Of a stretch of 64,000 nucleotides of DNA, positions 48,863 through 63,602 are shown in pieces. Both the position numbers and the translations under genes were made by a program. This DNA comes from Nonomuraea harbinensis (GTDB lineage Bacteria > Actinomycetota > Actinomycetes > Streptosporangiales > Streptosporangiaceae), in NCBI RefSeq assembly GCF_019396385.1, contig NZ_JAHKRN010000002.1, positions 248,001 to 312,000 on the forward strand, read 5' to 3'. Within the stretch, counting starts at the first letter, position 1, and each line of letters opens with the position of its first letter. The notes beneath the pieces were generated by a model. The model did no database searches and was not told where the DNA came from. It saw nothing but the letters and a program-made list of their open reading frames with translations.

Positions 48863-49756
48863 GTGCGCATCGCTCTCGCCGGGCTCGCCACCAGCCACCC
48901 GTACACCGACGCCAGGACCCTGGCCAGGCATGCCGAGCTCGTGGTGTGGGAGCCGGACGGGGAACGGCTGCGGAGGTTCACCGAGGAGCACCCGGAGGCG
49001 CGGGTGGCGGGAAGCCTGGGGGAGGCGCTGGACGGCGGGCCGGACGGGGTGGTGCTGACCGTGCCGAACCCGCGGGTGCCGGAGGCGCTGGCGGCGGTGC
49101 TGGAGACGGGGGCGGCGTGTTTCGTGAACAAGCCGGCGGCGGCCACCAGGGAGCAGCTCGACCGGCTGGACCGGCTGCCGATCCACGACCGGGTGATGTC
49201 GGGGTCCGTGCTGCGGTTCGCGCCGGCCTTCGCCGGGTGGGCGGCGGATCCGGCCGGGGTGCTGTCGGTGCGCGCGACCGTACGGCATGACGTGGGGCTC
49301 TGGGCGACCGGCTACAACGCCTGGCAGGACAACCCGTCCGAGGGCGGCGGGACGCTGGTGACCATGGGGGTGCACGGGGTGGAGCTGCTGGTGGCGCTGC
49401 TCGGCCCGGACGTGCGGCTGGCGGGCGCGGCGGGCGCCGTCCGGCACTACGGGACGCTCCGGTCGGAGGACACCGGGGTCATGGCGCTGCGGTGGGGGAG
49501 CGGCGTGACGGGCGTGGTGGAGGTCGTCGGCGTGAGCGACGAGGAGTCGTACGCCGTCACCGTCCACCGGCGCGGCGGGGACGAGCACGTGGTGATCGAG
49601 GCCGGTGACGACCCGGTGCTGGGCCTCGGTTACGCGAGGACGATCGAGGCGTTCCTGGAGATGGCGGGCGGCGGGCCCAGCCCGGTGCCGTGGGCGGAGA
49701 CCCGGGCCATCCTCGGCGTCCTCGTCTCGGCCCGCGAGAGCGTGCCCGTCCGTTGA
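48863..49756 (+). CDS. Gfo/Idh/MocA-family oxidoreductase
   Basis: 297 residues. Rossmann start MRIALAGLATSHPYTDARTL is a divergent NAD-binding loop; AACFVNKPAAATREQLDRL carries the family EKP-like motif (here NKP, residues ~91-109), and WQDNPSEGGGTLVTMGVHGVELL holds the catalytic-region histidine. Such enzymes oxidise or reduce sugars, inositols or derivatives with NAD(P). First gene of the accessory catabolic locus. GTG at 48863 with GGAGG 5 nt upstream. Its own promoter lacks the 18-bp motif seen downstream. Confidence 0.85.
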   Translation: MRIALAGLATSHPYTDARTLARHAELVVWEPDGERLRRFTEEHPEARVAGSLGEALDGGPDGVVLTVPNPRVPEALAAVLETGAACFVNKPAAATREQLDRLDRLPIHDRVMSGSVLRFAPAFAGWAADPAGVLSVRATVRHDVGLWATGYNAWQDNPSEGGGTLVTMGVHGVELLVALLGPDVRLAGAAGAVRHYGTLRSEDTGVMALRWGSGVTGVVEVVGVSDEESYAVTVHRRGGDEHVVIEAGDDPVLGLGYARTIEAFLEMAGGGPSPVPWAETRAILGVLVSARESVPVR

Positions 49757-49793
49757 CAGCGGCAGTCCCTCCCGGTTACGGTCTGGACCGTAA
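49753..49793 (+). promoter_or_regulatory. Promoter with operator copy A (TTACGGTCTGGACCGTAA)
   Basis: A perfect -35 TTGACA (49753-49758) is followed after 18 nt by TACGGT (49777-49782), which is part of the perfect 18-bp palindrome at 49776-49793. Operator and -10 therefore coincide, fitting repression. It precedes the epimerase/DapA-like pair. Confidence 0.75.
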
Positions 49794-49816
49794 ATAAGGA
49801 CAAAGGGGGACCCCGC

Positions 49817-50824
49817 GTGCGGACCACAGCGGAACTCGAGGAGCGGCTGGCGCGGCCGAGCGCCGGGCTCGTGGCGGACCTCGCCGCGCTGGACGGCGAC
49901 ATCATGATCCTCGGCGCCGGGGGCAAGCTCGGCCCCAGCCTGGTGCGGCTGGCGCTGAACGCCACCGGGGGCGACCGGCGGATCATCGCCGTCTCCCGCT
50001 TCTCCGAGCCCGGACTCGCCGACGCGCTCGCCGGCGCGGGCGCCACCGTGGTGAGCGCCGACGTGGCCGACGACCGGGCGCTGCGCGAGCTGCCCGAAGC
50101 GCCCAACGTGGTGTTCCTGGTCGGCGCCAAGTTCGGCACCCAGGGACGCGAGCACGCCACCTGGTTCACCAACACCTACCTGCCCGGCCGGGTCGCCGAC
50201 CGGTTCCGCGGCAGCAGGATCGCCGCCCTGTCCACCGGGAACGTCTACCCGCTCGTCCCGGTCGCCGGCGGGGGCAGCGTCGAGGACGACCCCGCCGGGC
50301 CCGTCGGCGAGTACGCGATGAGCTGCCTCGGCCGGGAGCGCACGCTGGCGCACTTCGCCGAGGCGCACGGCACCCCGATGGCGCTGATCCGGCTCAACTA
50401 CGCGGTCGAACTCCGCTACGGGGTGCTGGTCGACCTGGCGCAGAAGGTCCTGGCCCGCGAGCCCGTCGACCTGACCACCGGCCAGGTCAACGTGGTGTGG
50501 CAGGGGTACGCGAACGAGGTGACGCTCCGCTCCCTGCGGCTCGCCGCGACCCCGCCGTACGTGCTCAACGTGACGGGCCCCGAGCGGATCTCGGTACGGT
50601 GGGCCGCGCTGGAGCTGGGCGCGCGGCTCGGGGTGGAGCCGGTGTTCACCGGCGAGGAGGCGCCGACGGCGCTGCTGTCGGACGCGTCGCGGTGCCACCG
50701 GCTGTTCGGGTATCCCGGGATCACGCCGCTGGAGCTGATCGACCACATCGCCGGCTGGGTGGCCGGCGGCGGGCCGCTGCTGGGCAAGCCCACCAAGTTC
50801 GAACGCCGTGACGGCCGTTTCTGA
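49817..50824 (+). CDS. NAD-dependent epimerase/dehydratase-like protein
   Basis: 335 residues, extended SDR family. NAD loop ILGAGGKLGPSLVRLAL (residues ~31-47), then LSTGNVYPLVPVAGGGS, and GEYAMSCLGRE where the usual YxxxK is replaced by YAMSCLGRE, so the catalytic lysine is not obvious. It may be a reductase or epimerase with altered chemistry, or a binding protein. GTG at 49817 behind AAGGGGGA. Followed after 33 nt by the DapA-like gene; both under operator copy A. Confidence 0.8.
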   Translation: MRTTAELEERLARPSAGLVADLAALDGDIMILGAGGKLGPSLVRLALNATGGDRRIIAVSRFSEPGLADALAGAGATVVSADVADDRALRELPEAPNVVFLVGAKFGTQGREHATWFTNTYLPGRVADRFRGSRIAALSTGNVYPLVPVAGGGSVEDDPAGPVGEYAMSCLGRERTLAHFAEAHGTPMALIRLNYAVELRYGVLVDLAQKVLAREPVDLTTGQVNVVWQGYANEVTLRSLRLAATPPYVLNVTGPERISVRWAALELGARLGVEPVFTGEEAPTALLSDASRCHRLFGYPGITPLELIDHIAGWVAGGGPLLGKPTKFERRDGRF

Positions 50825-50857
50825 GACCGGCGACATCACATGACGAGGGGGACCCAC

Positions 50858-51913
50858 GTGCTCAGCACGGCTCCAGAGGCCAAGACGTCCGCGCGCGACC
50901 TGTTCAGGCGCGGCCTGGTCATCCCGGCGCACCCGCTGGCGCTGACCGCGGACCGGACGTTCGACGAGCGCCGCCAGCGCGCCCTGACCCGCTACTACGT
51001 GGAGGCGGGCGCCGGCGGTCTCGCGGTGGGCGTGCACACCACGCAGTTCGCCATCCACGGCACGGACCTGCTGCCGCCGGTGCTGGAGCTGGCCGCGGAC
51101 ACCGCCCGCGAGTCGGAGCGCGAGGTGCTGCTGATCGCGGGCGCCACCGGGCCGACCGCCCAGGCCGTGGCCGAGGCCGAGCTGGCCCGGTCGCTCGGCT
51201 ACCACATGGTGCTGCTGAGCCCGTACGCGGAGCTCGGCGAGGACGCGCTGGTGGAGCGGGCGCGGGCGGTCGGCGAGGTGCTGCCGGTGATCGGCTTCTA
51301 CCTGCAGCCCGCGGTCGGCGGGCGGCCGCTGTCACGGGACTTCTGGACCAGGCTGGCGGCGGTCGAGTCGGTGGCCGGCATCAAGGTCGCGCCGTTCGAC
51401 CGTTACCGCACGCTCGACGTGCTGCACGGCGTCGTGCGCGCGGGGCGGGCCGAGGAGGTCGCGCTCTACACCGGGAACGACGACCACATCCTGGCCGACC
51501 TCATCACCCCGCACCGGGTGGTCGTGGACGGGCGGGAGGTGGAGGTCGAGTTCGTCGGCGGCCTGCTCGGCCAGTGGGCGGTCTGGGTGCGGCGGGCGGT
51601 CGAGCTGCTGGAGGAGGCCAAGAGGGCCAGGGCGGGCGACGACGCGGCCGTCCGGCGGCTGCTCACGCTCGACGGGCACCTCACCGACGCCAACGCGGCC
51701 ATCTTCGACAGCGTCAACGGCTTCCACGGGTGCATCCCCGGGATCCACGAGGTGCTGCGCCGCCAGGGTCTGCTGGAGGGGCGCTGGTGCCTCGACCCGG
51801 CGGAGGAGCTGTCGCCGGGGCAGCTCGCGGAGATCGACCGGGTCTGGGCGGCCTACCCCTGGCTCAGGGACGACGACTTCGTGGCCGAGGGCCTGGCCCG
51901 CTGGCTGTCCTGA
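50858..51913 (+). CDS. Dihydrodipicolinate synthase-family (DapA-like) aldolase 1
   Basis: 351 residues, TIM-barrel class I aldolase. The Schiff-base lysine is in AGIKVAPFDRY (residues ~169-179) and the partner Tyr in VIGFYLQPAVGG (~143-154). The GGTTGE loop of true DapA is replaced by GVHTTQFAIH, and the protein is about 50 residues longer, so it is not lysine biosynthesis; family relatives cleave keto-sugar acids. GTG at 50858 was chosen for its GAGGGGG; an ATG at 50840 lacks one. Transcription probably ends at 51914-51943. Confidence 0.85.
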   Translation: MLSTAPEAKTSARDLFRRGLVIPAHPLALTADRTFDERRQRALTRYYVEAGAGGLAVGVHTTQFAIHGTDLLPPVLELAADTARESEREVLLIAGATGPTAQAVAEAELARSLGYHMVLLSPYAELGEDALVERARAVGEVLPVIGFYLQPAVGGRPLSRDFWTRLAAVESVAGIKVAPFDRYRTLDVLHGVVRAGRAEEVALYTGNDDHILADLITPHRVVVDGREVEVEFVGGLLGQWAVWVRRAVELLEEAKRARAGDDAAVRRLLTLDGHLTDANAAIFDSVNGFHGCIPGIHEVLRRQGLLEGRWCLDPAEELSPGQLAEIDRVWAAYPWLRDDDFVAEGLARWLS

Positions 51914-51943
51914 CGGCCTCCGTCCATGAGCGGGAGGAGGCCG
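51914..51943. terminator. Bidirectional hairpin between convergent genes
   Basis: CGGCCTCC pairs perfectly with GGAGGCCG over a 14-nt loop, directly between the DapA-like stop and the regulator stop. Confidence 0.55.
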
Positions 51944-51950
51944 CGGGGTG

Positions 51951-53156
51951 TCACAGTGTCAGCCGGTACAGCGTGAGCGGCCGCCCGCTGGACCCGCTGG
52001 TCAGATTCCCGGTGCGTTCGGCGAGGCCGGCGAGCTCCAGGCGGTGGAGCATGCGGCGGGCGGTGCGCTGCTGGACGGCGAGCCGGTCGGCGATCTCCCG
52101 GGTCGTCAGCGGCTCGTCGCCGGCGGCCCTGCGCGCCTCCAGGAGCTTCTCCAGGGTGGGCACCGACAGGCCGACGCGGCGGGCGATGACGGAGAGGTTC
52201 TGCTCGCCGGCCGGCCCGGTGGGAACCGACTCCAGCACGATGTCGGTGTCGGCGCGCAGCGACAGGACCGCCGCGACGTCGCCGATGCGGCGGGCGCGGG
52301 CGAGCGCGCGGCGGGCCAGGCTCTCCGCCTCGGCGGCGCTGCGGCCCAGGCCGAAGCCGACGCGCACCACGCTGTTCTGGACGGCCAGGCGGGCCAGCAG
52401 CGGCAGACCGGTGAAGCCGCCGGTGGCGTCGTGCAGCGGGCCCCGGGTGGTCACCAGCAGGTGGGTGCCGCCCCGGAAGGCGGCCACGGTGCCGCCCAGC
52501 GCGGTGGCCTCGCGCAGCAGGCCCTCGTCGTTCGCCACCTCGACGAGGCCGAGCGCGATCTGCGCGTCCTCCTGGGCCTGGCCCTGCGCGGTCAGCAGGA
52601 GCTGGCGCAGCGCCACCCGCACCGAGTGCGTCGACGGGGCCAGCCGCAGCACGCGCATGTCGTCGCGGAGAGCCTCGTGGACGCTGCTGAGACAGGTGAT
52701 CACCGGGTGGGCGGGGCCGCGCCGGTGGAAGGCGACGGCCTTCTCCGATGTCATCTCCGGCCGGTAGGGGAGCGTGCGCAGCTCGCCCGTGGGCAGCCCC
52801 GCCTCGGCGAACGTGGCGACGACGTCGGCGGCCGGCAGCGTGTCGATGGACAGCCGGGTCACGTCCACGCCCTGGTGCTGGAGTCGTACCAGGGCGCTGA
52901 GCAGCGTCGCGCCCGTGTAGTCGACGAACGCGGCGGGGCGGGTCAGCGCCTCGGCGTCGCGGGAGAGCATGTACGGCACGATGCCGGTGAACAGCCATCC
53001 CTCGACGGCCGCGGTGTGCGCCTCCACGATCGCGGGCGCCTGCGACTCGTGGTCGTAGTCCAGCCGCAGGGCGCTGACGCCCGGCTGCTCCTCGCAGGTG
53101 GCCGCGACCTGGTCTACCAGGTCATGCGGGCCGACGACGCCGATGACGATCGCCAC
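51951..53156 (-). CDS. Transcriptional regulator with N-terminal receptor, cyclase-like and winged-helix regions
   Basis: 401 residues, no common family recognised. N-terminal IGVVGPHDLVDQVAATCE looks like a Rossmann-type receptor; the middle segment GFGLGRSAAEAESLARRALAR (broken here, ~281-301) resembles GGDEF/GTP-cyclohydrolase-III-like domains; the C-terminus (TTREIADRLAVQQRTARRML, then HRLELAGLAERTG) is a winged helix. GTG at 53156 follows GAGGGGG by 6 nt. It is divergent from the aminotransferase gene across operator copy B and is the only regulator in the locus, hence the best candidate to bind the 18-bp motif. Confidence 0.8.
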   Translation of the reverse strand: MAIVIGVVGPHDLVDQVAATCEEQPGVSALRLDYDHESQAPAIVEAHTAAVEGWLFTGIVPYMLSRDAEALTRPAAFVDYTGATLLSALVRLQHQGVDVTRLSIDTLPAADVVATFAEAGLPTGELRTLPYRPEMTSEKAVAFHRRGPAHPVITCLSSVHEALRDDMRVLRLAPSTHSVRVALRQLLLTAQGQAQEDAQIALGLVEVANDEGLLREATALGGTVAAFRGGTHLLVTTRGPLHDATGGFTGLPLLARLAVQNSVVRVGFGLGRSAAEAESLARRALARARRIGDVAAVLSLRADTDIVLESVPTGPAGEQNLSVIARRVGLSVPTLEKLLEARRAAGDEPLTTREIADRLAVQQRTARRMLHRLELAGLAERTGNLTSGSSGRPLTLYRLTL

Positions 53157-53176
53157 CCATGTCCCCCTCTCGCTTA

Positions 53177-53194
53177 TTACGGTCAAGGCCGCAA
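53177..53194. promoter_or_regulatory. Operator copy B (TTACGGTCAAGGCCGCAA)
   Basis: Imperfect copy of the 18-bp palindrome in the 59-bp divergent gap between the regulator and aminotransferase genes; suited to autoregulation. A TATCCT -10-like hexamer follows at 53198-53203. Confidence 0.65.
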
Positions 53195-53215
53195 TCGTAT
53201 CCTGTGAGGTGCTCT

Positions 53216-54415
53216 GTGAAGTTCCCGTCCATGGCCGAGCCGGAAGGCCGCACGCTCGGCGACGAGGAGGTGGCCGCCCTGGAGCGGGTGATCCGCTCGG
53301 GCATGCTCAACTCCGTCTGGGGAACCGAGGCGCGGGCGCTCGAACGCGAGATCGCCGAGCTGCACGGCGTGCGCCACGCGATCGCGTGCAGCTCGGGCAC
53401 CGCAGCCCTCCATCTCGCCGTCGTGGCCGCCGCGCCGGACCCCGGCGACGAGATCATCACGACACCGATCACGGACTTCGGCACTGTGGCCCCCATCTTG
53501 GCGCAGAACGCCGTCCCTGTCTTCGCCGACGTCGATCCGTCCGACGGCAATCTCGACCCGGCCGCCGTCGCGGCGCTCATCGGGCCGCGCACGCGGGCCA
53601 TCATGGCGGTGCACCTGTTCGGCGCGCCGGCGCGGGTGGACGAGCTGCGCGCCCTGGCGGACGCGCACGGCCTGGCCCTGATCGAGGACTGCGCCCAGGC
53701 CTGGCTCACCGAACTGCCCGACCCGGCGGGCGGAGGCGGCAGGGACGTGCGGCTCGCCGGGACGGTCGGCGACGTCGCCTGCCTGAGCCTGCAGCAGTGG
53801 AAGCACATCACCTGCGGCGACGGCGGCCTCACGCTGACCGGCGACGACGAGCTGGCCCGCCGGATGCGGCTGTTCTCCGACAAGGGCTGGGACCGCTCGG
53901 CGGGCCGTTCGCACGCCGCCTTCGGGCTGAACTACCGCATGACCGAGCTTCAGGCCGCCGTCGCGCGGGCCCAGCTCGCCAAGCTGCCCGGGGTGGTCGC
54001 CGCCCGCCGCCGCACGGCCGTACAGCTCCTTGAGGCCTTGCAGGGGCTTCCAGGCGTACGGTTGCCGCGCCCGGAGGGCCACGCCTGGTGGCTCTTCCCC
54101 GTCGTGCTCCCCGGCGGCGGCGCGGCGGAGCTGGCCGGGAAGCTGCGGGCGGCCGGGATACCGGCGCGGGCCGGATATCTGGACGAGCCGCTGAACCACG
54201 CCCCCGTATGGCAAGGGCCGATCTACGGGGCCTCTCGCTACCCTTTGCAGGGGTACGCCCCCCGGCCCTGCCCGGAGGCCGAGCGGATGGTCGCGGAGAC
54301 CTTGATGGTCATCGACTGGAACGAGAACTACACACCCGATCACGTCCACCTCATCGCGCGGGAGATGACCAGATTTCTGGCGCCGTCCTCGTCACGGTCG
54401 GATATCGGGGATTGA
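53216..54415 (+). CDS. DegT/DnrJ/EryC1/StrS-family PLP aminotransferase
   Basis: 399 residues, sugar aminotransferase fold type I: ACSSGTAALHLAV (residues ~61-73), VHLFGAPARVDEL, ALIEDCAQAW (~159-168), and the PLP lysine in LQQWKHITCGDGGL (~194-207), then GLNYRMTELQAAV. Members aminate keto-sugars (or dehydrate them). In an import-linked catabolic locus it may run as an amine-removing or -adding step on an amino sugar. GTG at 53216 with GAGG upstream. Confidence 0.9.
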   Translation: MKFPSMAEPEGRTLGDEEVAALERVIRSGMLNSVWGTEARALEREIAELHGVRHAIACSSGTAALHLAVVAAAPDPGDEIITTPITDFGTVAPILAQNAVPVFADVDPSDGNLDPAAVAALIGPRTRAIMAVHLFGAPARVDELRALADAHGLALIEDCAQAWLTELPDPAGGGGRDVRLAGTVGDVACLSLQQWKHITCGDGGLTLTGDDELARRMRLFSDKGWDRSAGRSHAAFGLNYRMTELQAAVARAQLAKLPGVVAARRRTAVQLLEALQGLPGVRLPRPEGHAWWLFPVVLPGGGAAELAGKLRAAGIPARAGYLDEPLNHAPVWQGPIYGASRYPLQGYAPRPCPEAERMVAETLMVIDWNENYTPDHVHLIAREMTRFLAPSSSRSDIGD

Positions 54416-54457
54416 CCCGAGACGGATCGCGTTACTAGGTTTCGGTCAGGACCGGTA
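54412..54457 (+). promoter_or_regulatory. Promoter and operator copy C before the ABC importer genes
   Basis: TTGACC (54412-54417) and TACTAG (54433-54438) form a -35/-10 pair with a short 15-nt spacer. The operator TTTCGGTCAGGACCGGTA (54440-54457) lies right after the -10, around the expected transcription start. Confidence 0.6.
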
Positions 54458-54477
54458 TTAAGGAAAGGTTGCCGCCG

Positions 54478-55722
54478 ATGAGAAAGACAGCGACCCTGGG
54501 CGTCGCGATCGCGCTGAGCATCGCCGCCGCCGGGTGCGGATCGTCCAGCGGTTCGGACAAGAGCACGGTGACCCTGTGGATGTATCCGGTCATCGGCGAC
54601 CAGGCCAAGAGCCAGGCGTTCTGGCAGAAGGTCGAGAAGGACTTCGAAGCGAAGAACCCGGACGTCGACGTCACCGTCGACCAGCAGCCGTGGGAGGGCC
54701 GTCAGGAGAAGGTCACCACCGCCCTGGTCTCGAAGAAGGGCTTCGACCTGGTCGTCCTCGGCCCCGACCAGATCCCGCAGTACGCCCAGCAGGGCACGAT
54801 CGAGCCGGTCGACGACGTGGTGGCCGAGGCGAAGGACGCCTACCTGCCCAGCTCGCTCACCGCGCTGACCGTCGACGGCAAGCTCTACGGCGTGCCGATC
54901 TACCAGACGATCACCGCGCCCATCTACAACAAGAAGCTGTTCGCCGAGGCGGGCGTCGAGAAGATCCCCGAGACGCTGGACGAGCTCAAGGCGGCCGCCC
55001 CCAAGCTCGCCGCGAACAAGGTCGCCGTGCTGGACTACCCGGGCAAGCCCGAGGTCAGCCTGAACCAGAGCTTCTACCCCTTCCTGTGGGCCAACGGCGG
55101 CACCGTGTTCGCCCCCGACGGCAAGAGCGTGGCGTTCAACGGCCCGGAGGGCGTGGCGAGCCTGCAGCTCCTGCTCGACCTCAAGGCCGCGGGCGGGCTC
55201 CCGGAGAACACCGCCAGCAAGGGCAACGACATCGAGGGCGGCGCGCTCGCGGCGGGCAAGACCGCCATGTACCACGCGGCCACCGCCGGGCAGGCCGTCC
55301 AGCTCGGCGCCGTCATCGGCGAGGAGAACGTCGGCATCGGCCTGCCTCTCGAAGGTGCCAAGCGGGTCGCGTTCGGCATCCCCGGCGGGGTCGTGCTGGC
55401 CAAGCACTCCGAGCACAAGGACGCCGCCAGGAAGCTGGCCGGCTACCTGGCCTCGCCCGAGGTCACGGGCGAGCTGGCCAAGGAGTCCGGCTTCTTCCCG
55501 GCCCGCACCGACGTCACCGTGCCGGACCAGTCGGAGTCGGCGAAGGAGTTCGCCAAGTCCCTGGAGTACGCCTTCCCCGGCGACACCCACCCCCAGGCCC
55601 GTCAGGTCATGGGCCTCATCGCGCCGCACATCCAGGCGGCCCTGCTCGGCCAGGAGGACGCCAAGCAGGCCCTCGACGCGGCGGCCGAGGAGGCCAACGC
55701 GCTGCTGGCCAACGGCGGCTGA
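54478..55722 (+). CDS. ABC transporter extracellular solute-binding lipoprotein (sugar type)
   Basis: 414 residues. Lipoprotein signal ending in SIAAAGC (Cys20), then the family-1 solute-binding fold typical of oligosaccharide or polyol importers (VTLWMYPVIGD, KGFDLVVLGPDQIPQYAQQG, LYGVPIYQTITAPIYNKKLF written here in short parts). It delivers the substrate to the two permeases encoded next. ATG at 54478 follows AGGAAAGG by about 9 nt. No ATPase gene is in the window, so a shared MsiK-like ATPase is likely. Confidence 0.92.
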   Translation: MRKTATLGVAIALSIAAAGCGSSSGSDKSTVTLWMYPVIGDQAKSQAFWQKVEKDFEAKNPDVDVTVDQQPWEGRQEKVTTALVSKKGFDLVVLGPDQIPQYAQQGTIEPVDDVVAEAKDAYLPSSLTALTVDGKLYGVPIYQTITAPIYNKKLFAEAGVEKIPETLDELKAAAPKLAANKVAVLDYPGKPEVSLNQSFYPFLWANGGTVFAPDGKSVAFNGPEGVASLQLLLDLKAAGGLPENTASKGNDIEGGALAAGKTAMYHAATAGQAVQLGAVIGEENVGIGLPLEGAKRVAFGIPGGVVLAKHSEHKDAARKLAGYLASPEVTGELAKESGFFPARTDVTVPDQSESAKEFAKSLEYAFPGDTHPQARQVMGLIAPHIQAALLGQEDAKQALDAAAEEANALLANGG

Positions 55723-55738
55723 ACGAGAAAGGAACGCC

Positions 55739-56605
55739 GTGCGTCATCGCTTGCGTGACCCGGTCACCGGGCTGCTGTTCGTGCTGCCCGTGTTCGTGCT
55801 CTTCCTGATCTTCCGGATCTTCCCCTCACTGGGGGCGGCGGGCATGAGCCTGACGAACTGGAACATCGGCGGCGAGTGGAGCTTCGTCGGCGCGGACAAC
55901 TACGCCAGGCTGCTCGGCGACGTCAACTTCTGGCTCAGCCTGCGGGTCTCGCTGGTGTACGCGGCGATCTACGTGCCGCTCACCGTCCTGGTGGCGCTCG
56001 GCACCGCGCTGCTGCTCAACCAGGTGGTGTTCATGCGCGGCCTGTTCCGCGGCATGCTCTTCCTGCCGTACGTGACCAGCTTCGTGCTGGCGGGCATCGT
56101 CTGGCGCTGGATCTACGAGTTCGACGGGCTGATCAACGGCCTGATCGGCAAGCTGGGGCTCGGCCCGGTGGCGTTCCTGGAGCAGGCGTCGCTGGTGCTG
56201 CCCGCGCTGGCCGTGGTGTCGGTGTGGAAGGGGTTCGGCTACTCGATGCTCATCCTGCTGGCCGGTCTCAAGTCGATCCCGGCCAGCTACCTGGAGGCCG
56301 CCACGGTCGACGGGGCCGGCGCCTGGCAGAAGTTCCGCCGGATCACGCTGCCGCTGCTCAAACCGACGCTCTTCTTCGTCCTGGTGATCGAGACCATCAG
56401 CGCCTTCCAGGTGTTCGACACCATCTACGTGATGACCGGCGGCGGCCCGGCGCGGGCCACGTACACGCTCATCTACGGCATCTACGACCACGGCTTCCGC
56501 TCCTTCGACTTCGGCTACGCCGCGACCTGGGGAGTGGTGCTGTTCGCGATCGTCCTGGCCGTGTCGCTGATCCAGCGCCGCTTCCTGGACCGGGGGAACA
56601 CGTGA
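55739..56605 (+). CDS. Sugar ABC transporter permease 1 (MalF/UgpA type)
   Basis: 288 residues, six membrane helices. The ATPase-docking EAA loop is EAATVDGAGAWQKFRRITLP (residues ~186-205). Begins MRHRLRDPVTGLLFVLPVFV; GTG at 55739 has AAAGGA 5 nt upstream. Its stop overlaps the next permease start as GTGA. Confidence 0.93.
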   Translation: MRHRLRDPVTGLLFVLPVFVLFLIFRIFPSLGAAGMSLTNWNIGGEWSFVGADNYARLLGDVNFWLSLRVSLVYAAIYVPLTVLVALGTALLLNQVVFMRGLFRGMLFLPYVTSFVLAGIVWRWIYEFDGLINGLIGKLGLGPVAFLEQASLVLPALAVVSVWKGFGYSMLILLAGLKSIPASYLEAATVDGAGAWQKFRRITLPLLKPTLFFVLVIETISAFQVFDTIYVMTGGGPARATYTLIYGIYDHGFRSFDFGYAATWGVVLFAIVLAVSLIQRRFLDRGNT

Positions 56606-57474
56606 CGCTCACCTCATCCAGCACCGCATCCAGGCCGCTCGCCCGCGACCGCGCCGCCGGACGGGCGCCGCGCCGACGGGCCAGGTGGCCGCTCGCCGTC
56701 CTGCTGGCCGTGCTGTCGGTGCTGACCGTCGCGCCGTTCCTGGCCATGCTGATCGTGGCGCTGTCGCCGGCAGGCCAGCCGACGCTGCCCGCGCGGTGGC
56801 CCGAGACGCTCACGCTGGACAACCTGACCAGGGTGCTGTCGGCGTCCGGGTTCGTGGAGTGGACGGTCAACTCGCTCGTCTACTCCGTCGTGTCCGTGGT
56901 GGTCATCCTGCTCACCGCGTCGATGGCCGGCTACGCGTTCGCCAAGAAGCGCTTCCCTGGCCGCGACACGATGTTCTGGACGTTCCTGGCGACCATGATG
57001 GTGCCGTTCCAGGCCACGCTCATCCCCACGTTCGTGCTGGTCAACAGCTTGGACGGGGTGGACACGTTCTGGGGCCTGATCGTGCCGACGCTGGCCAACT
57101 CGCAGGCGGTCTTCCTGATGCGGCAGTTCATCATGGGGCTGCCGGACGAGCTGTTCGACGCGGCCAAGGTGGACGGGGCGTCGGAGCTGCGGGTCTATCT
57201 GACGATCGTGGTGCCGCTGACCCGGCCGATCATGGCCACGCTGGGCGTGTTCGTGTTCCTGTGGCACTGGAACGACTTCCTCTGGCCGCTGGTCGTCGGC
57301 CAGAGCGACGCCACCAGGACGCTGACCGTGGGACTGACCACGCTGCGCACCGAGGAGATGCAGCTGTCGATGCTCATGGCGTCGGCGACGATCTCGGTGA
57401 TCCCGTGCCTGCTGGTGTTCTTCCTGCTGCAGCGGTATCTGGTGAACAGCATCGCGATGACCGGGTTCAAATAA
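56602..57474 (+). CDS. Sugar ABC transporter permease 2 (MalG/UgpE type)
   Basis: 290 residues, six membrane helices, with a basic N-terminal stretch before helix 1. EAA loop: DAAKVDGASELRVYLTIVVP (residues ~188-207). GTG at 56602 overlaps the first permease stop, giving equal translation of the pair. Followed after 10 nt by the second DapA-like gene. Confidence 0.93.
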   Translation: MTLTSSSTASRPLARDRAAGRAPRRRARWPLAVLLAVLSVLTVAPFLAMLIVALSPAGQPTLPARWPETLTLDNLTRVLSASGFVEWTVNSLVYSVVSVVVILLTASMAGYAFAKKRFPGRDTMFWTFLATMMVPFQATLIPTFVLVNSLDGVDTFWGLIVPTLANSQAVFLMRQFIMGLPDELFDAAKVDGASELRVYLTIVVPLTRPIMATLGVFVFLWHWNDFLWPLVVGQSDATRTLTVGLTTLRTEEMQLSMLMASATISVIPCLLVFFLLQRYLVNSIAMTGFK

Positions 57475-57484
57475 GCTCATTTAT

Positions 57485-58417
57485 GTGGATATTGCTGCAC
57501 GTGAGCTCCGGGATCGCCTCCGTGGCACGCTGATCGCCGCCGCGGCCACGCCCATGACCGCCGCGGGCGAGGTGGACCCGGACGTCGTGACCCGCTACCT
57601 GGCCTCCCTCGTCGCGGACGGCGCCGGCGCCCTGGCGGTCCTCGCCCACACGGGCCGCGGCCCCTTCCTGACGCCGGACACGCGCGCCGCCGTGATCGGG
57701 CGCGCGGTCGCCCTCGGCGTCCCGGTCCTGGTCGGCGTGGGCGGCACACCCGGACAGGGCGCCATCCCGGAGGACGGCGAGCCTGACGGCGCAGCGGAGC
57801 AGACGAGGCTCGCGGCGGAGCTGGGGGCCACCGGGGTGCTGGTGTTCCCGTCGCCCGGTGACCGGCTCGCGCACCATGACGCCGTCTGGCGGGCGGCCCG
57901 GCTCCCCATGATCGCCTTCGACCTCTACACCCGGCCCTGCCCGCCCGAGGTGATGCGCGGCCTTCTCACCCATCCCGGTGTGGCGGGCCTCAAGACGGCC
58001 CTGCTCTCGGACGCGATGGGCTGCCAGCGCGCCATCGCCCTCACCAGGGACGCGGGCCGGCTCGCGATCACCGGCGAGGACCGCATGTTCGCCCCGTCCC
58101 TGCTGTGGGGTGCCGAAGCGGCTCTGGTCGGTATCGCCGCCGCCCAGGTCGGGCTGACCGCCGCCGTGATGCGCGCCTTCCGGGGTCCGGACCTGCCCGC
58201 CTTCCACGAGGCGTCGTCCCGCCTGGACCGCCTGGCCGCGGCCACGTTCACCGACCCCATGGAGTGCTACGTCCAGCGCATGCTCTGGCTCGCCGCCGCC
58301 GAAGGCCGCATCCCGCCCGATCACGCCCATGACCCGTACGGCCCCGCCCTGCCGGTCGGAGAGCGCGAGACCGTACTCCGATCCGTCACACCACCAGCGG
58401 ACAAACCAGACAGCTAG
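57485..58417 (+). CDS. Dihydrodipicolinate synthase-family (DapA-like) aldolase 2
   Basis: 310 residues, TIM-barrel. Schiff-base lysine in AGLKTALLSD (residues ~168-177); the usual YN.P is FDLYTRPCPPE. Distinct from aldolase 1 (little direct similarity visible), so the two probably act on different keto acids or one has become a lyase of other specificity. Last gene of the ABC operon. Its stop codon TAG forms the first three bases of the -10 of the following Nudix gene. Confidence 0.85.
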   Translation: MDIAARELRDRLRGTLIAAAATPMTAAGEVDPDVVTRYLASLVADGAGALAVLAHTGRGPFLTPDTRAAVIGRAVALGVPVLVGVGGTPGQGAIPEDGEPDGAAEQTRLAAELGATGVLVFPSPGDRLAHHDAVWRAARLPMIAFDLYTRPCPPEVMRGLLTHPGVAGLKTALLSDAMGCQRAIALTRDAGRLAITGEDRMFAPSLLWGAEAALVGIAAAQVGLTAAVMRAFRGPDLPAFHEASSRLDRLAAATFTDPMECYVQRMLWLAAAEGRIPPDHAHDPYGPALPVGERETVLRSVTPPADKPDS

Positions 58418-58420
58418 CAT
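58415..58420 (+). promoter_or_regulatory. -10 of the leaderless Nudix gene, built on a stop codon
   Basis: TAGCAT (58415-58420) ends 6 nt before the ATG at 58427. Its TAG is the stop codon of the aldolase 2 gene. Confidence 0.5.
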
Positions 58421-58426
58421 CGGATC

Positions 58427-58987
58427 ATGCGCGATGCGGAAGCCGGAACGATCAGGCAGCTCTCGACCAAGGTGGTCTACGCCAACGCGTGGATGAAGGT
58501 CCGGGAGGACGAGATCGAACGTCCCGACGGATCACGCGGCACCTACGGCTACGTCGACAAGCCAGACTTCGCCCTGGTCATCCCGATGGAGCGGGACGGC
58601 TTCCACCTGGTGGAGGAGTACCGCTACCCGGTGCGCCGCCGGTCGTGGAGCTTCCCGCAGGGCTCGGCCGCCGAGCCCACCCCCGAGGACGTCGCGCGGA
58701 CGGAGCTCGCGGAGGAGACCGGCCTGCGCGCGCGGACCTGGACCCCGCTGGGCGCGCTCGACAACGCCCACGGCCTGGCCACCCAGCGGCTGCACGTCTA
58801 CCTCGCCACCGGCCTGGAGGCGGGGGCCGCCGAGCGCGAGCACACCGAGCAGGACATGCGCCGGCGGTGGGTGAGCCGGGCCGAGTTCGAGGACATGCTC
58901 CGCGCCGGCGAGGTGGGCGACTCGGGGTCGGTCGCGGCCTACACCCTGCTGACCCTGCACGAGCGCGTCACGCCAGCGTCTGGGTGA
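58427..58987 (+). CDS. Nudix hydrolase (ADP-ribose pyrophosphatase-like)
   Basis: 186 residues. Nudix box: GSAAEPTPEDVARTELAEET-G (residues ~85-105), matching Gx5Ex7xExxEExG with Thr in place of the usual Arg before Glu. N-terminal part (KVVYANAWMKVREDEIERPDG) is like ADP-ribose pyrophosphatases. Removes nucleoside-diphosphate compounds. Leaderless promoter; convergent with the S66 peptidase gene, 20-bp overlap. Not obviously part of the catabolic pathway. Confidence 0.9.
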   Translation: MRDAEAGTIRQLSTKVVYANAWMKVREDEIERPDGSRGTYGYVDKPDFALVIPMERDGFHLVEEYRYPVRRRSWSFPQGSAAEPTPEDVARTELAEETGLRARTWTPLGALDNAHGLATQRLHVYLATGLEAGAAEREHTEQDMRRRWVSRAEFEDMLRAGEVGDSGSVAAYTLLTLHERVTPASG

Positions 58988-59978
58988 TCTCGCCCCGCCC
59001 CCCGGCGTACGTGACGCGCGCGCGGGCGCCGTTGACCAGCGGCAGGTACGGCGGGACGTGGCCGCACTCGACGTCGGCGATGATCGGCACGCCGAGCCCG
59101 CCGAGGGCGTCGAGCACCGCCTCGTGCTGGGTCAGCGTGAGCAGGCCGGGGGCGCGGGTGCGCCCGGCGAGGATCGCGGTGGCGCCGTCGAAGAACCCGG
59201 CCAGGCGCATCCCGTGCAGGTGGCGGCAGATGGTGCCGGCGTCGTGCTGGTCCGCCTCGACGTACACGATGAGCCCGTCGGCGGACAAGGAAGAGGTGTC
59301 GGCGTACCGCGTCCCGGCGACGTCGCACAGCGTCTCGACACAGCCGCCGATCAGCCGGCCCTCGGCCGTCACCGGGCCGTCGCCGTCCAGCCGGGTCCAG
59401 CCGCCGGGCGTGTCGAGGGTGAACTCGTCCGCCTCGGGAGAGATCTGCCACTCGTCGAAACCCTGCGCCCGGTAGCGGCCCGGCGGCGTCTGGGTGAACA
59501 TGGCGCCGGACGGCAGCGCCACGATGTCGAGCCAGCCGAGCAGCCCGTCCGGCACCCGGTACGGCGTGTCCATGAGGTTGTTGCCGTGGATCGTCGCCAC
59601 GCCGGTCAGCAGGGTCAGCGGGGTGATGATCGTCGACAGGTCGGAGTAGCCCACCACCCAGGTCGGCTCCGCCGCGCGCAGCGCCTCCCAGTCGAGCAGC
59701 GGCAGCAGGTCGATCGCGGTCTCCCCGCCCCACGGCGGCACCACGGCCTTGATCGCGGGGTCGGTGAGCATGTCCGTCAGCTCGCGCGCCCGCTCGGCCG
59801 CGGGCGCGCTGACGTGGCCGGCGCCGTCCATGCACGACCCGGTCACGACCTCGTAGCCGCGCGCCTCGACGGTGCGGATCGCGACCCGGAGCCGGTCGTG
59901 CAGGGTCTTGTCCACGCCGCTGGACGGGGAGGTGACGCCGATCCGGTCACCGGGGCGCAGAGGGGATGGATATCGCAT
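58968..59978 (-). CDS. LD-carboxypeptidase S66 family (MccF-like)
   Basis: 336 residues. The nucleophile serine is in VVGYSDLSTII (residues ~113-123), with the general-acid region EADQHDAGT and the catalytic histidine in ADVECGHVPPYLP (~302-314). MccF members cleave microcin C-type aminoacyl-nucleotides for self-immunity; others recycle murein LD-peptides. The insert and PSSG start favour the MccF subgroup. Cytoplasmic. No microcin genes nearby. Confidence 0.88.
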   Translation of the reverse strand: MRYPSPLRPGDRIGVTSPSSGVDKTLHDRLRVAIRTVEARGYEVVTGSCMDGAGHVSAPAAERARELTDMLTDPAIKAVVPPWGGETAIDLLPLLDWEALRAAEPTWVVGYSDLSTIITPLTLLTGVATIHGNNLMDTPYRVPDGLLGWLDIVALPSGAMFTQTPPGRYRAQGFDEWQISPEADEFTLDTPGGWTRLDGDGPVTAEGRLIGGCVETLCDVAGTRYADTSSLSADGLIVYVEADQHDAGTICRHLHGMRLAGFFDGATAILAGRTRAPGLLTLTQHEAVLDALGGLGVPIIADVECGHVPPYLPLVNGARARVTYAGGRGEITQTLA

Positions 59979-60030
59979 CCCCTCGTCCTATCACCCGTGG
60001 ATCATCCGAAACCACAGGGTTCACGCCGCC

Positions 60031-61992
60031 TCATCGGCGGCCGGTGATGGCGATGCGGACCAGGTCGCGGCCCTTCACCCCGAACAACGCCTTGCGCGAG
60101 GGATCCAGCGCCAGCTTCGGCTCACCGCCGAACCACTGCCCGGCCAGGCCCTCCGCGATCGGCCTGACGGTGAACGTGACCAGGTCGATCTTGTACACCT
60201 TGTCGCCGTCCGTGCAGTAGGCCACCCGGCCGACGACGTGCAGGTCGCTGCCGCGGTTGCCGACCTTGAGCGTCCTGGTGACCTTCTTGCGCAGCAGGTC
60301 GAACTCGAACACCTCGCCCGTGCTGGAGATGCCGTACAGATTCAGGACGCCGAGCGAGAGCGAGATGATCGAGCGGGCGCCGGGCAGGGGTTCGAGCTCC
60401 CACAGCAGCTTGCGCCGGACGAGGTCGTAGGCGGCCAGACGGGCGGTGGTGGTGACCGGAGGCAGCCCGAGGCCCTCCTGGATCAGGGTGCCGAGGTAGG
60501 CGGTGCCGTGCCTGGTGGCGACCGAGTAGACGGTCTGGCGTTCGACGACGGGCCGCTGGACGGTGTACTCGCCGGTGCGGCGGGAGTAGAGGGTCAGCGC
60601 GCCGTTCATGTGGCCGGGCTCCGGCTGGGAGGGCATCACGATCAGGCCCGTCCTGGCGTCGTAGGCCAGGTCGCGCGGGCGGTCCTGCTGGTTGCCGGCC
60701 CGGGCGAGCAACTCCGCCTCGGCCTGGCCCGAGCGGTGCGCGTAGAGCGCGGCCTGGGTGTAGACGCCGAGGTAGGTGGTGTGGCCGAGCGTGAGCATGG
60801 TCTTCGGCTCGCCGGGGATGGCGAGCCTGGTGACCTCGCCCGTCGCCAGGTCGTGGATGTCGGCACCGCTCTTGCCGCCCACGTAGACGCGCCGGCCGTC
60901 GCTGTGCACGGACATCGGCTCCTCGGGCGCGGCCCTGAACCCGCGCTGCACCAGGTTGCGGTAGTCGATGGCGCCGGTCTCGGGGTCGTAGACGAACACC
61001 GCGTTGTCCTGCACACCGTAGATCCGGCCCTCGTGGGCGAGGATGCGGTGGGTGGCGGCCTCGAAGTACGGCACGCCGAGCACCTCCAGTTCGCCGGAGT
61101 CCAGGCGGCAGCGGTAGAAGGTGCCGGTGGGGCGGCCCGCGAAGTACGCGTAGCCGTCGTGGATGAGCACCGAGACGATGTACTTCTCGCCCGGGGCCGT
61201 GGCCTTGACGACCTTGTGGTCGGAAGGGTCGGATTTGCTGAGGATCAGCAGCTCGGCCAGGGAGTTCATGCCGCCGGCGATGTGCGTGTCGGAGACGCTC
61301 ATGCTCGACACCCAGTCGCGGTCGGCCAGCTCGGGCGGCAGCAGGTCGCGCCGCTCGCCGGTGGCCCGGTCGATGGCGATGAGGTGGGCGTTGGCGCCGA
61401 CGCCGGCGTAGACGTAGCGGTCGTCGGCCTGGACGGCGCGCACGTACGCCTCGCCGGGCGCGGCCTCACCCAGGTCGCGCACGACGCCCGTGGCCGGGTC
61501 GTACTCCTTGACCTTGCCCGGTTCGGAGGTGCCCAGGTAGACCTTGCCGTCGGGGGAGGCGGCCAGGCTCCAGATGAAGTGGTCGGGCACCGAGGCGACC
61601 TTGGTCAGCGTGCCCGCCACCGTGTCGAGCTTGTAGAGGTCGGACTTGGAGTGGGTGCCGACGTAGACGTCGGTGCCCGTCTTGCACATCGCCCACACCC
61701 CGATGCCCGTCGGGATGTCGAAATGGGCGGTGACCGAATCCTCGGCGAGATCGTACGCGCCGACCACGTTGGGCGACAGCCCGCGCGAGCCCGCGTAGAG
61801 CACGCCGCCGACGAACTCGGCGTTGCCGAGCGGGCTGGCGACGCTGGCGGGACCCAGGTCGGTGAGGGTCCCCTCGGGGACCGGCGTGGCGTGCGCGGGT
61901 GCGGCGGGCAGCGCGGCGGGCAGGGCGGCGGGCAGGGCGGCGGCCACCGTGGACGCGGCGGCCGCCTGCAGGAATCGACGGCGGGGGATCAT
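60031..61992 (-). CDS. Secreted (Tat) beta-propeller protein
   Basis: 653 residues. Twin-arginine signal MIPRRRFLQAAAASTVAAAL with an AHA cleavage site near residue 35, then repeated propeller blades of the type DVYVGTHSKSDLYKLD, KVYLGTSEPGKVKEYDP, RVYVGGKSGADIHDLATG, ending on a C-terminal blade. PQQ/YVTN-like, probably sugar- or polymer-binding or a lyase such as oligogalacturonate-lyase-like folds; catalytic residues cannot be assigned. ATG at 61992 with GGGAG 6 nt upstream. Operator copy D precedes it, and a homologue lies at 63603. Confidence 0.82.
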   Translation of the reverse strand: MIPRRRFLQAAAASTVAAALPAALPAALPAAPAHATPVPEGTLTDLGPASVASPLGNAEFVGGVLYAGSRGLSPNVVGAYDLAEDSVTAHFDIPTGIGVWAMCKTGTDVYVGTHSKSDLYKLDTVAGTLTKVASVPDHFIWSLAASPDGKVYLGTSEPGKVKEYDPATGVVRDLGEAAPGEAYVRAVQADDRYVYAGVGANAHLIAIDRATGERRDLLPPELADRDWVSSMSVSDTHIAGGMNSLAELLILSKSDPSDHKVVKATAPGEKYIVSVLIHDGYAYFAGRPTGTFYRCRLDSGELEVLGVPYFEAATHRILAHEGRIYGVQDNAVFVYDPETGAIDYRNLVQRGFRAAPEEPMSVHSDGRRVYVGGKSGADIHDLATGEVTRLAIPGEPKTMLTLGHTTYLGVYTQAALYAHRSGQAEAELLARAGNQQDRPRDLAYDARTGLIVMPSQPEPGHMNGALTLYSRRTGEYTVQRPVVERQTVYSVATRHGTAYLGTLIQEGLGLPPVTTTARLAAYDLVRRKLLWELEPLPGARSIISLSLGVLNLYGISSTGEVFEFDLLRKKVTRTLKVGNRGSDLHVVGRVAYCTDGDKVYKIDLVTFTVRPIAEGLAGQWFGGEPKLALDPSRKALFGVKGRDLVRIAITGRR

Positions 61993-62026
61993 GTGCGGCT
62001 CCCAGGTGAAGTTTCGCCGCACGCTA

Positions 62027-62044
62027 TAACGGACTGGGCCGTAA
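62027..62044. promoter_or_regulatory. Operator copy D (TAACGGACTGGGCCGTAA)
   Basis: Imperfect copy of the 18-bp palindrome between the amidohydrolase stop and the propeller gene. On the minus strand it reads TTACGGCCCAGTCCGTTA and is followed by TATAGC. Confidence 0.6.
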
Positions 62045-62047
62045 TGT

Positions 62048-62758
62048 CTATATCTTGAACAGCTCGGCGGCGTTGCGCCAGGCGACCCGCTCCGCCGTCA
62101 CGCCGGTCAGCCCGGCCGCGGCGACCGCGCCGAACGCCGACGACGGGTCGATCAGCGTCGAGTCGGTGCCGAACAGCAGCTGCCGGTCGGGCACGGCCGC
62201 CACCACCTCGGCGATCCGGCCCGCCGGCGCGTGCGACCAGCAGGGCTCCAGGTAGAGGCGGTCGCAGGCGTTGGCGGCCTCGATCGCGTGGCGGTGACCG
62301 TCGGCGCCCATGTGGCCCGCGATCACCCGCAGCTCCGGGATGTCCAGGCACACCTGGGCCAGGTCCAGCACCGAGGCGCCCCAGGTGTGCACCAGCGCCG
62401 GAAGGCCCGCCTCGGCGGCCAGCTCCAGGGCGGCCCGCATCCGCGGCGAGGTCACCGGGGAGCCCGTGTAGTCCGTGTGGATCTTGACCCCGACCCACGG
62501 GCCGGTCAGCTCCCGCAGGTCCCCGGCCGCCTCGCCGAGCCGCCGCGGGTTGACCGTGACGTACCCGTACAGCCGGTCCTGCCCGTCGAGCATCCTGGCC
62601 AGCGCCCGGTTGCCCGCCGGGGCGTCGTAGATCACCGCCTCGGTGGCCGACACGATCGCCTTGCCGATGCCGTAGCGGTCCATGGTGGCCAGGCTCGCCC
62701 CGGCCACGTCCATGGTGAAGAACCACGGCCCCCAGTGCGCGTGCACGTCGATGATCAT
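62048..62758 (-). CDS. Amidohydrolase-family protein (COG2159-like) 1
   Basis: 236 residues, metal-dependent TIM-barrel. First metal motif IDVHAHWG (residues ~3-10), then VGVKIHTDY, LVHTWGAS (~121-128), VIAGHMGADG (~144-153) and LLFGTDST (~192-199). It cleaves C-C or C-N/C-O bonds; substrate unknown. ATG overlaps the stop of the upstream amidohydrolase (ATGA), so the two are made together and may form a heteromer or successive steps. Confidence 0.85.
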   Translation of the reverse strand: MIIDVHAHWGPWFFTMDVAGASLATMDRYGIGKAIVSATEAVIYDAPAGNRALARMLDGQDRLYGYVTVNPRRLGEAAGDLRELTGPWVGVKIHTDYTGSPVTSPRMRAALELAAEAGLPALVHTWGASVLDLAQVCLDIPELRVIAGHMGADGHRHAIEAANACDRLYLEPCWSHAPAGRIAEVVAAVPDRQLLFGTDSTLIDPSSAFGAVAAAGLTGVTAERVAWRNAAELFKI

Positions 62759-63495
62759 GAAAGCAGCCTCCTCGCGTTGCCCCCGGCCACGGCGGCCACC
62801 TCGTCAGGTCCCAGCCCGCTCGTCGCCAGCCGGAGCAGCGGCACGATCGGCTCGTAGTGCGGCGCGCGGGTGCCGTGCAGCAGCCGCTCCGCGCCGACCT
62901 CGGCGGCCACCGTCTCCAGCGCGTCGGGGGAGTTGAGCAGCCGGGTCGAGGTGTGGAACCCCGGTTCGTCCAGCGCCGCCACCAGGAAGTCGCCCAGATG
63001 GTAGAAGTGCGTGTCGAGGAAGACGACCCGGGCGCCGAGACCCGCGAACGGCTGCCAGAAGCGGCGCACGTCCCCGCCGGTCAGCACCACCAGCCCGAGT
63101 TCCGCGGCCCGCCGGGCGACATGCCGGACCGACGGGAACGACGCCTCCACGCCCTGCTCGTCCGGGAACAACCGCACCGCCCGCACCCCCGCGCCCGCCA
63201 GCCGGTCGAGCTCGCGGCCCGCGCCGATCGGGTCGCGCAGGTCCACCGTGCCGACGGGCAGCCAGCGCGGGTCGCCGCCCAGGGCCAGCACCTCGTCGTT
63301 GCCCGATCGCATGTCGAACAGGGCCGCCCGCAGGCTCGCCACCGCCCCGGCCGCGGTGCGGTGCTCCGCCAGCAGGCCGCCCACCGACTCCGCGCCGCCG
63401 GGCGGCCCGTCACGGTCGGGATAGGCCCCGACCAGCACGTCCACGTCCAGCGCCACCTCCAGGTCGCCTATCAGACTCCACGCGTCGAAAGCCAT
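62755..63495 (-). CDS. Amidohydrolase-like protein 2, metal motif reduced
   Basis: 246 residues, TIM-barrel related to amidohydrolase 1. It lacks the HxH motif at the N-terminus (IGDLEVALDVDVLVGAYPDRD instead, in short parts), but keeps VVFLDTHFYHLGDF and RLLHGTRAPHYEP in positions of later metal motifs. Possibly a non-catalytic partner of amidohydrolase 1. ATG at 63495 follows GGAGGAGGGG by about 8 nt. Divergent from the second propeller gene across operator copy E. Confidence 0.75.
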   Translation of the reverse strand: MAFDAWSLIGDLEVALDVDVLVGAYPDRDGPPGGAESVGGLLAEHRTAAGAVASLRAALFDMRSGNDEVLALGGDPRWLPVGTVDLRDPIGAGRELDRLAGAGVRAVRLFPDEQGVEASFPSVRHVARRAAELGLVVLTGGDVRRFWQPFAGLGARVVFLDTHFYHLGDFLVAALDEPGFHTSTRLLNSPDALETVAAEVGAERLLHGTRAPHYEPIVPLLRLATSGLGPDEVAAVAGGNARRLLS

Positions 63496-63535
63496 GGCGG
63501 CCCCCTCCTCCATCGACATGCGGGCCATCATGCCA

Positions 63536-63575
63536 TTGACGTATCCCGTTCATAAAGTTACGGTCTGGCCCAAAA
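63536..63575. promoter_or_regulatory. Promoter with operator copy E (TTACGGTCTGGCCCAAAA)
   Basis: TTGACG (63536-63541), a 17-nt spacer and TACGGT (63559-63564) form a promoter for the gene at 63603. The -10 is the left half of operator copy E (63558-63575), the same arrangement as copy A. The right half has diverged. Confidence 0.65.
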
Positions 63576-63602
63576 TCAAGCACGAATGAACGAGGTATGG
63601 GC

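Follow-up and report, generated by a model that had tools for sequence, protein, structure and literature searches.

The 64,000-nucleotide stretch of Nonomuraea harbinensis DNA analysed here (contig NZ_JAHKRN010000002.1, positions 248,001 to 312,000; hereafter the window) contains a locus in which genes for an SDR, two DHDPS-family proteins, a DegT-type aminotransferase, a sugar-type ABC transporter, three amidohydrolases and two propellers are grouped around one regulator gene, and in whose intergenic gaps an 18-letter palindrome recurs. The repeated palindrome is real, and in many soil actinomycetes it marks promoters across one gene set of sugar type. The initial annotation of this DNA had reported five copies, and direct reading together with a matrix scan finds all five at the coordinates then given, each within an intergenic gap. 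These copies (operators A to E) and the genes around them are listed below in window coordinates.

49776..49793, + strand: operator A, TTACGGTCTGGACCGTAA, heading the SDR/aldolase operon (direct read and matrix scan)
49817..50824, + strand: SDR/NAD-epimerase family protein (Pfam PF01370), first gene of operon A
50840..51913, + strand: DHDPS-family protein (DHDPS1, the first aldolase; PF00701), operon-internal
51951..53156, - strand: candidate repressor of 401 aa (predicted PrpR_N-like, cyclase/GTP-cyclohydrolase-III-like and C-terminal winged-helix parts)
53177..53194, - strand: operator B, between the divergent regulator and DegT aminotransferase genes
53216..54415, + strand: DegT/DnrJ/EryC1/StrS-family aminotransferase (PF01041, E 1.3e-86)
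54440..54457, + strand: operator C, heading the sugar ABC transporter
54481..55722, + strand: carbohydrate-type ABC transporter substrate-binding protein (SBP; PF13416/PF01547, with sugar-binding PDB relatives)
55735..57474 (approximate), + strand: two sugar-type permeases of 290 and 293 aa, operon-internal (labelled as permeases by eye)
57485..58417, + strand: second DHDPS-family protein (DHDPS2; PF00701)
60031..62022, - strand: tandem beta-propeller protein 1 (the real start is probably an ATG ~30 bp inside)
62027..62044, - strand: operator D, heading tandem-propeller gene 1
62048..62758, - strand: Amidohydrolase_2 family protein (AH1; PF04909), operon-internal
62755..63531, - strand: Amidohydrolase_2 family protein (AH2; PF04909), first gene behind operator E
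63558..63575, + strand: operator E, between the divergent amidohydrolase pair (-) and propeller gene 2 (+)
63597..64000, + strand: propeller protein 2, continuing to 65573 outside the window and followed by operator F and the third amidohydrolase gene (AH3)

The palindrome has the form TTACGGTC-N2-GACCGTAA. Scored with a symmetric matrix built from the remaining four, each left-out site reaches 18.3-28.8 bits, and the best other position in the window, at 10.5-12.8 bits, never equals the left-out site; nothing else in the window comes near, in agreement with the earlier statement that it holds no further copies, and 60 dinucleotide-shuffled windows gave no match as high as the left-out sites. 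Throughout the 9.39 Mb of the organism's own genome, TTACGGTCNNGNCCGNAA with at most one mismatch occurs at three places, all inside the locus, and allowing two mismatches leads into background (27 forward and 27 reverse matches, with 9 and 4 for the reversed-pattern control). A sixth site, operator F (TTTCGGTCTGTGCCGAAA), lies 1.6 kb past the end of the window (C45:313575-313592, or 65575 in window-extended numbering) and precedes the next gene of the locus, which encodes AH3. The description of the copies as standing directly before genes is correct for all five, with the refinement that copy D, in the narrow space after the stop codon of the 62048-62758 gene, precedes the propeller gene at 60031-62022 only.

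The regulator's closest named relatives belong to Nonomuraea species. By the cut that we applied, orthologues with 83-94% identity are encoded by 29 of 35 same-genus genomes, in addition to the organism's own (same genus being the label of the genome set used); a tally at E 0.001, which includes paralogues, gives 42 of 59 genomes. A weight-matrix scan of relatives, covering part of the material, places matches before orthologues of the same genes, as the regulon originally proposed would predict. Relatives' loci were mapped with the window proteins only, and genes entered the count only when the alignment of their start regions exceeded 45% identity. On this basis, and for the 29 orthologous loci plus the own locus, sites precede the operon heads almost throughout: SDR 27/27, regulator 30/30, DegT 26/27, SBP 26/26, propeller-1 17/18, AH2 22/22, propeller-2 17/19 and AH3 14/18, counts that are not independent in that the regulator and DegT genes share one site and AH2 and propeller-2 another. 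No site was found before the internal genes of the same loci for DHDPS1 (0/27), the first and second permeases (0/26 each) or AH1 (0/24); DHDPS2 has one in 1 of 27 loci and Gfo in 3 of 27.

Beyond the genus, 26 loci were counted. They were taken from 36 mapped loci, themselves part of a set of 71; three Nonomuraea loci and seven others were left out, and of these seven, L181, L184 and L205 lack a site ahead of the regulator gene and L160, L186, L188 and L193 have one beside it. Within the 26, sites precede SDR in 22/22, the regulator in 21/25 (25/32 with all seven added), DegT in 20/22, SBP in 11/12 and propeller-2 in 2/2, and internal genes have none (DHDPS1 0/24, permeases 0/18 and 0/15, DHDPS2 0/20, AH1 0/16); the figure for Gfo is 1/17. 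For the SDR start the combined count is 49 of 49 loci (27 same-genus, 22 other). At 17 bits, ten same-genus loci yield 52 matrix matches, as compared to 0, 0, 0, 0, 0 and 1 for six column-permuted palindromic matrices, and ten outgroup loci yield 42, as compared to 0, 0, 0, 1, 0 and 0. The motif persists in several actinomycete families, and although gene order differs outside the genus, the sites travel with their genes. Two pairs of outgroup loci come from one genome each (L157 with L175, L206 with L207), and the outgroup loci overlap with the family genomes considered below. Some genomes have two copies of the regulator locus (L236 and L251 in G126; L141 and L143; L157 and L175), and G126 may be the same organism as that of L157/L175. 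In one locus (L067, G031) the regulator gene is split into two overlapping frames, by pseudogene formation or sequencing error, and the operators are intact. The regulator is kept with few or none of the other locus genes in L043, L050 and L061; in the last of these (G008) a second good site, at 14995-15012, lies just behind the stop of the lone regulator gene, with a P450-like gene (identified by eye) further on.

The motif is not common genome-wide: in the own genome it is confined to the locus at 0-1 mismatch, and in relatives it largely follows the regulator. At this stringency (<=1 mismatch) it was found in 30/30 same-genus genomes with the regulator and, among 58 family genomes, in 16 of the 18 that have it; the reversed motif, used as a control, had no match in 36 same-genus genomes or in the 58 family genomes. 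Two genomes without other locus genes nearby (G010 and G021) have as their sole strict match, among the matches listed, the regulator's own site, and no propeller genes were found in either.

The sites also lead to distant targets. Twenty regions around distal motif matches, picked by eye among the matches listed, were read, and in 18 of them the site stands at the start of a gene for a relative of the window propeller (26-84% identity), including relocated relatives in G011 (84%) and G030 (68%) that keep their sites. The site in one region from a genome without the regulator (L132, G015) is not at a propeller gene. Another (L121, G009, ~4030) lies between two genes, one for a weakly PQQ_2-matching protein and one for a CBM-bearing protein of the glucose/sorbosone-dehydrogenase type, hinting that sugar oxidation may be part of the regulon. 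A profile of the propeller family detects members in 5 of 14 chosen genomes, four of the five having been chosen for distal motif matches, and in 0/6 genomes without the regulator and 0/3 with a lone regulator. These five genomes hold 22 propeller genes (~650 aa, tandem). A site lies upstream of the profile match in 21 of them, and the exception comes immediately after, and in the same orientation as, a propeller gene that has a site. Propellers occur in 24 of 200 genomes sampled across the family, and the regulator was found in 15 of the 17 propeller-bearing genomes tested (G118 and G148 lack it) as compared to 3 of 41 propeller-negative ones.

The window propeller matches Pfam PQQ_2 above the cut-off, NCBIfam gives two single-member matches for the propellers, and propeller 1 is apparently exported, with a TAT_signal match at E 5.1e-4 that is under Pfam's cut-off. 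The first propeller of the predicted model has the same fold as virginiamycin B lyase (2z2n, Z 32.0, 275 aligned, rmsd 2.2), which is a single propeller, whereas the window protein has two in tandem; many WD40-type propellers score equally (top 5yzv, Z 32.7), so that the match indicates the fold only. No polysaccharide lyase title appears among the best 50 structure matches, a result that excludes nothing.

The placement of the sites relative to promoter elements was examined group by group. The initial annotation had read the left arm of copies A and E as the -10 of a promoter, and both promoters are as described: -35 TTGACA (49753-49758) and -10 TACGGT (49777-49782) with a spacer of 18 for copy A, and, for the + gene at copy E, -35 TTGACG (63536-63541) and -10 TACGGT (63559-63564) with a spacer of 17. 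At operator C, -35 TTGACC (54412-54417) is followed by a -10, TAGGTT (54436-54441), that overlaps the first two bases of the operator. At operator B, the first base is possibly the last one of a TAnnnT -10 that would belong to the regulator promoter, for which no -35 was recognised, and no TTGAC -35 was recognised at operator D or in any of 17/17 propeller-1 loci. In relatives, TTGAC starts 22-23 bp upstream of the site in 49/49 SDR loci with a site and 22 bp upstream in 19/19 propeller-2 loci with a site, so that the left arm TACGGT is the -10 there. In the SBP group the distance is 27-29 bp (35/37 loci) and in the AH3 group 27-28 bp (16/18 loci), which makes the site's first two bases the end of a TAGnTT-type -10. 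There are thus two registers, ~5 bp apart, both of which cover the -10/+1 region in those four promoter groups, out of eight, whose -35 can be recognised. The other four (regulator, DegT, propeller-1, AH2) have no TTGAC at a fixed distance (DegT 45/46, propeller-1 17/17, AH2 26/28 loci without it), and promoter overlap is therefore not established for them. The earlier suggestion of repression by steric block, made for copies A and E, agrees with this placement: where a -35 can be recognised, the site would be well placed for occlusion.

Conservation is not limited to the -10-like half. Among 98 distinct gene-site pairs outside the window, picked by the window's symmetric matrix, which favours palindromes, GG at positions 5-6 and CC at positions 13-14 are present in 98/98, and G at position 15 in 89/98; both arms are kept, which speaks against conservation of a half-site only. 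The sites may also reach into translation starts. A GTG start lies inside the site TTTCGGTCTGTGCCGAAA in 13 of 18 AH3 loci with a site, among the matches listed, and in the own genome the transcription start expected from the AH3 -10 (predicted, read by eye) coincides with that GTG; three propeller genes (L208, L209 and L210) have TTTCGGYCATGACC with an in-frame ATG at the corresponding place. Such start codons inside operators suggest that leaderless transcripts may begin within the operator.

The 401-residue regulator begins with the GTG at 53156. Its predicted model has a mean pLDDT of 88 and a pTM of 0.64, the latter leaving the arrangement of domains uncertain. The N-terminal 195 residues are predicted to adopt a PrpR_N-like fold (2q5c, Z 17.8, 183 aligned, rmsd 2.7; 2pju_C, Z 16.1, 182 aligned, rmsd 2.9), for which the evidence is of fold only, none of 30 regulator-family members matching Pfam PrpR_N at E 0.01. 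Residues 199-303 are predicted to have the nucleotidyl-cyclase/GGDEF/GTP-cyclohydrolase-III fold (2qv6_C, Z 9.6, 98 aligned, rmsd 2.8; soluble adenylyl cyclase 4cls, Z 10.6); a profile of the regulator matches 2qv6 at E 0.0048, and PF05165 matches 14 of the 30 members at E 0.01 (best E 3.2e-5), the window protein not among them. The last ~80 residues form a predicted winged helix of the PH1932/ArsR-like type (Z 9.5, 66-67 aligned), and the Pfam matches at ~344-383 are to HTH_IclR and HTH_23 above the cut-off and to HTH_20 and MarR below it. At E 0.01 the 30 members match 23 families, none of them an AAA+ sigma-54 domain, and NCBIfam matches to the regulator alignment are weak (excisionase domain 10/30, GTP cyclohydrolase IIa 8/30).

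The candidate recognition helix, QQRTARR, and the operator are kept together in homologues with as little as 43-50% identity (L248-L250), and no site precedes the gene of L252, a homologue of 46% identity whose helix differs. Twenty regulator paralogues (27-34% identity) were tried as further users of the same operator and rejected, the single match of at least 8 bits in their 20 upstream stretches being one of 12.6 bits at L106. The wider loci of 15 paralogue regions hold one strong match (26.0 bits, L114 at 7329, G032). Two paralogues of 434 aa have another palindrome, TTTACGAAC-N3-GTTCGTAAA, 8 nt before the start (L099 6054-6074, L101 7377-7397); its copies have 0 and 2 mismatches, and the outer half TTACG is common to it and the window operator. 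The pattern is no more than suggestive.

Set beside the sites, their conservation and restriction to operon heads, their overlap with promoter elements where these are recognisable, their co-occurrence with the regulator and its predicted folds, all of which were obtained by computation, the reading that we favour, with a probability of roughly 0.83, is that a one-component repressor, the 51951-53156 protein, uses the palindrome as its operator and would block the promoters listed here until released by a small molecule. The regulator would presumably bind TTACGGTC-N2-GACCGTAA as a dimer and, positioned over the -10/start region, would block sigma-70-type promoters of its own gene, the SDR/aldolase operon, the aminotransferase gene, the sugar ABC transporter operon, the amidohydrolase operons and the genes of the exported tandem propellers. 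Its release may be brought about by a small molecule originating from the substrate that is taken up or processed, with the PrpR_N-like domain, the cyclase-fold domain or both as the most likely sensor. The assignment of the sites to this protein, which the initial annotation had offered as an inference, is now well supported, if not proved: a site precedes the regulator gene in 30/30 same-genus loci, two genomes have the regulator's own site as their sole strict match, and recognition helix and operator are conserved jointly. We infer that the protein binds the sites and represses, that it has an inducer, and that its role is in carbohydrate catabolism.

Several observations weigh against this reading. 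Besides the four promoter groups that have no TTGAC at a fixed distance, the site outside the genus precedes AH2 in only 6/16 loci, AH3 in 4/9 and propeller-1 in 0/1; the genomes and loci compared share ancestry and come in part from the same organisms, which makes the counts non-independent, and the scanning matrix was derived from the window itself. A slightly different helix, QLRTARR, is found in L199 and L201 with the sites kept, and three orthologues (L181, whose sequence is the same as that of G061; L184, the same as that of G085; and L205) keep QQRTARR and have no site before their own genes. The strict motif occurs, moreover, in 2/6 same-genus genomes without the regulator, with one match each, and in 8/40 such family genomes, with 10 matches in all, which is above the reversed control; the same-genus match in G015 falls inside a predicted reading frame, and the remaining regulator-less genomes with a match are G022, the other of the same genus, and G059, G060, G073, G078, G080, G087, G089 and G097. 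These matches could be chance occurrences or sites of a related regulator. Together with the three orthologues lacking a site, they count in favour of the alternative that the operators are real but bound by another factor encoded elsewhere, with the 51951-53156 gene as one of its targets. In a comparison that mapped window proteins only, we consider this unlikely, as motif presence largely follows the regulator and helix and operator are mostly conserved together, the 20 paralogues with other helices having no such site upstream.

It is also improbable, in our estimation, that the same protein binds the sites as an activator or dual regulator, which the PrpR_N domain, best known from an activator, and the four groups without a recognised -35, as activated promoters can be, might otherwise recommend; in the other four groups the site lies on the -10/+1 region in the two registers described, and this suits occlusion rather than a fixed contact upstream of the -35. 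That the conserved element is a promoter signature, such as the -10 of an alternative sigma factor, with palindromy secondary, has in its favour that, in copies A and E, the left arm is at the same time a TAnnnT -10 served by a good -35. We regard it as very doubtful given that the right arm is conserved too, CC and G at the frequencies given above in sites chosen by the symmetric matrix, and that in the SBP and AH3 groups the -10 is mostly outside the arm and the palindrome shifted. Chance resemblance of five intergenic stretches has next to no likelihood in the face of the leave-one-out and shuffle tests, the permuted matrices and the conservation across families.

A repressor with dispersed operators of this kind can be compared with several known systems. 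PrpR, the regulator of propionate catabolism (PDB 2pju; 2q5c is from Clostridium), has the same predicted N-terminal fold as the window regulator. PrpR is a sigma-54 AAA+ activator; the window regulator differs in having no AAA+ or sigma-54 model match among 30 members, in its C-terminal winged helix, and in that several of the sites overlap sigma-70-type promoters. Local repressor regulons of the LacI, GntR or MarR type are known from sugar catabolic loci, and the present locus resembles these in its palindromic operators, which by sequence lie over -10/+1 in the four groups with a recognisable -35, the site before the regulator's own gene, the divergence of regulator and target, and the placing of transporter and enzymes under one operator. 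Unlike them, it has a regulator whose DNA-binding domain is C-terminal, behind two other domains, and targets that include scattered propeller genes. The winged helix is shared with MarR/ArsR-type repressors, which are small proteins consisting of that domain and dimer helices, in contrast to the 401 aa of the window regulator, and residues 199-303 appear from the model to have the fold of GTP cyclohydrolase III and nucleotidyl-cyclase proteins, although unlike the former the window protein has no PF05165 match at E 0.01. The conservation of operators at operon heads, including the regulator's own, is that of an autoregulated local repressor regulon, with the exceptions L181, L184 and L205. 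A literature search returned nothing on this operator, regulator or propeller family, which does not show the system to be unpublished, and a text search for the 8-letter arms gave unrelated titles among the matches listed.

The family names in the locus hint faintly at sugar-acid or amino-sugar catabolism. The PDB relatives of the DegT aminotransferase and the SBP do not fix a substrate, and the SDR has no PDB match at E 0.001. Adjoining the locus, at 44268-48072 of the window, is a gene pair that we take to encode hydantoinase/oxoprolinase A and B; it is also next to the locus in several relatives, and no matrix match was found before it.

Beyond the initial annotation, the analysis adds the sixth site, the distant propeller targets and the spread over several families, and it reveals a sharply bounded regulon whose operator is easy to read and can be followed across several actinomycete families. 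One pathway is thereby linked to a regulator architecture and to an exported tandem-propeller family, both unnamed in the libraries used, so that the substrate can be sought through the inducer of the regulon. As a single protein joins a sensor like that of PrpR to a cyclase-like domain, it can be tested directly which of the two senses the ligand. More tentatively, and at somewhat below even odds, we suggest that the regulator may represent an undescribed class of one-component repressor, with a PrpR_N-like sensor, a degenerate nucleotide-cyclase fold and a winged helix, controlling by way of scattered operators a dispersed and expanding set of exported tandem propellers that would be a new glycan-active or glycan-binding family with a matching import and oxidation pathway, and that in part of the regulon the start codon of a leaderless transcript would lie in the operator, a single 18-bp element then serving as -10 flank, operator and start of both transcription and translation.

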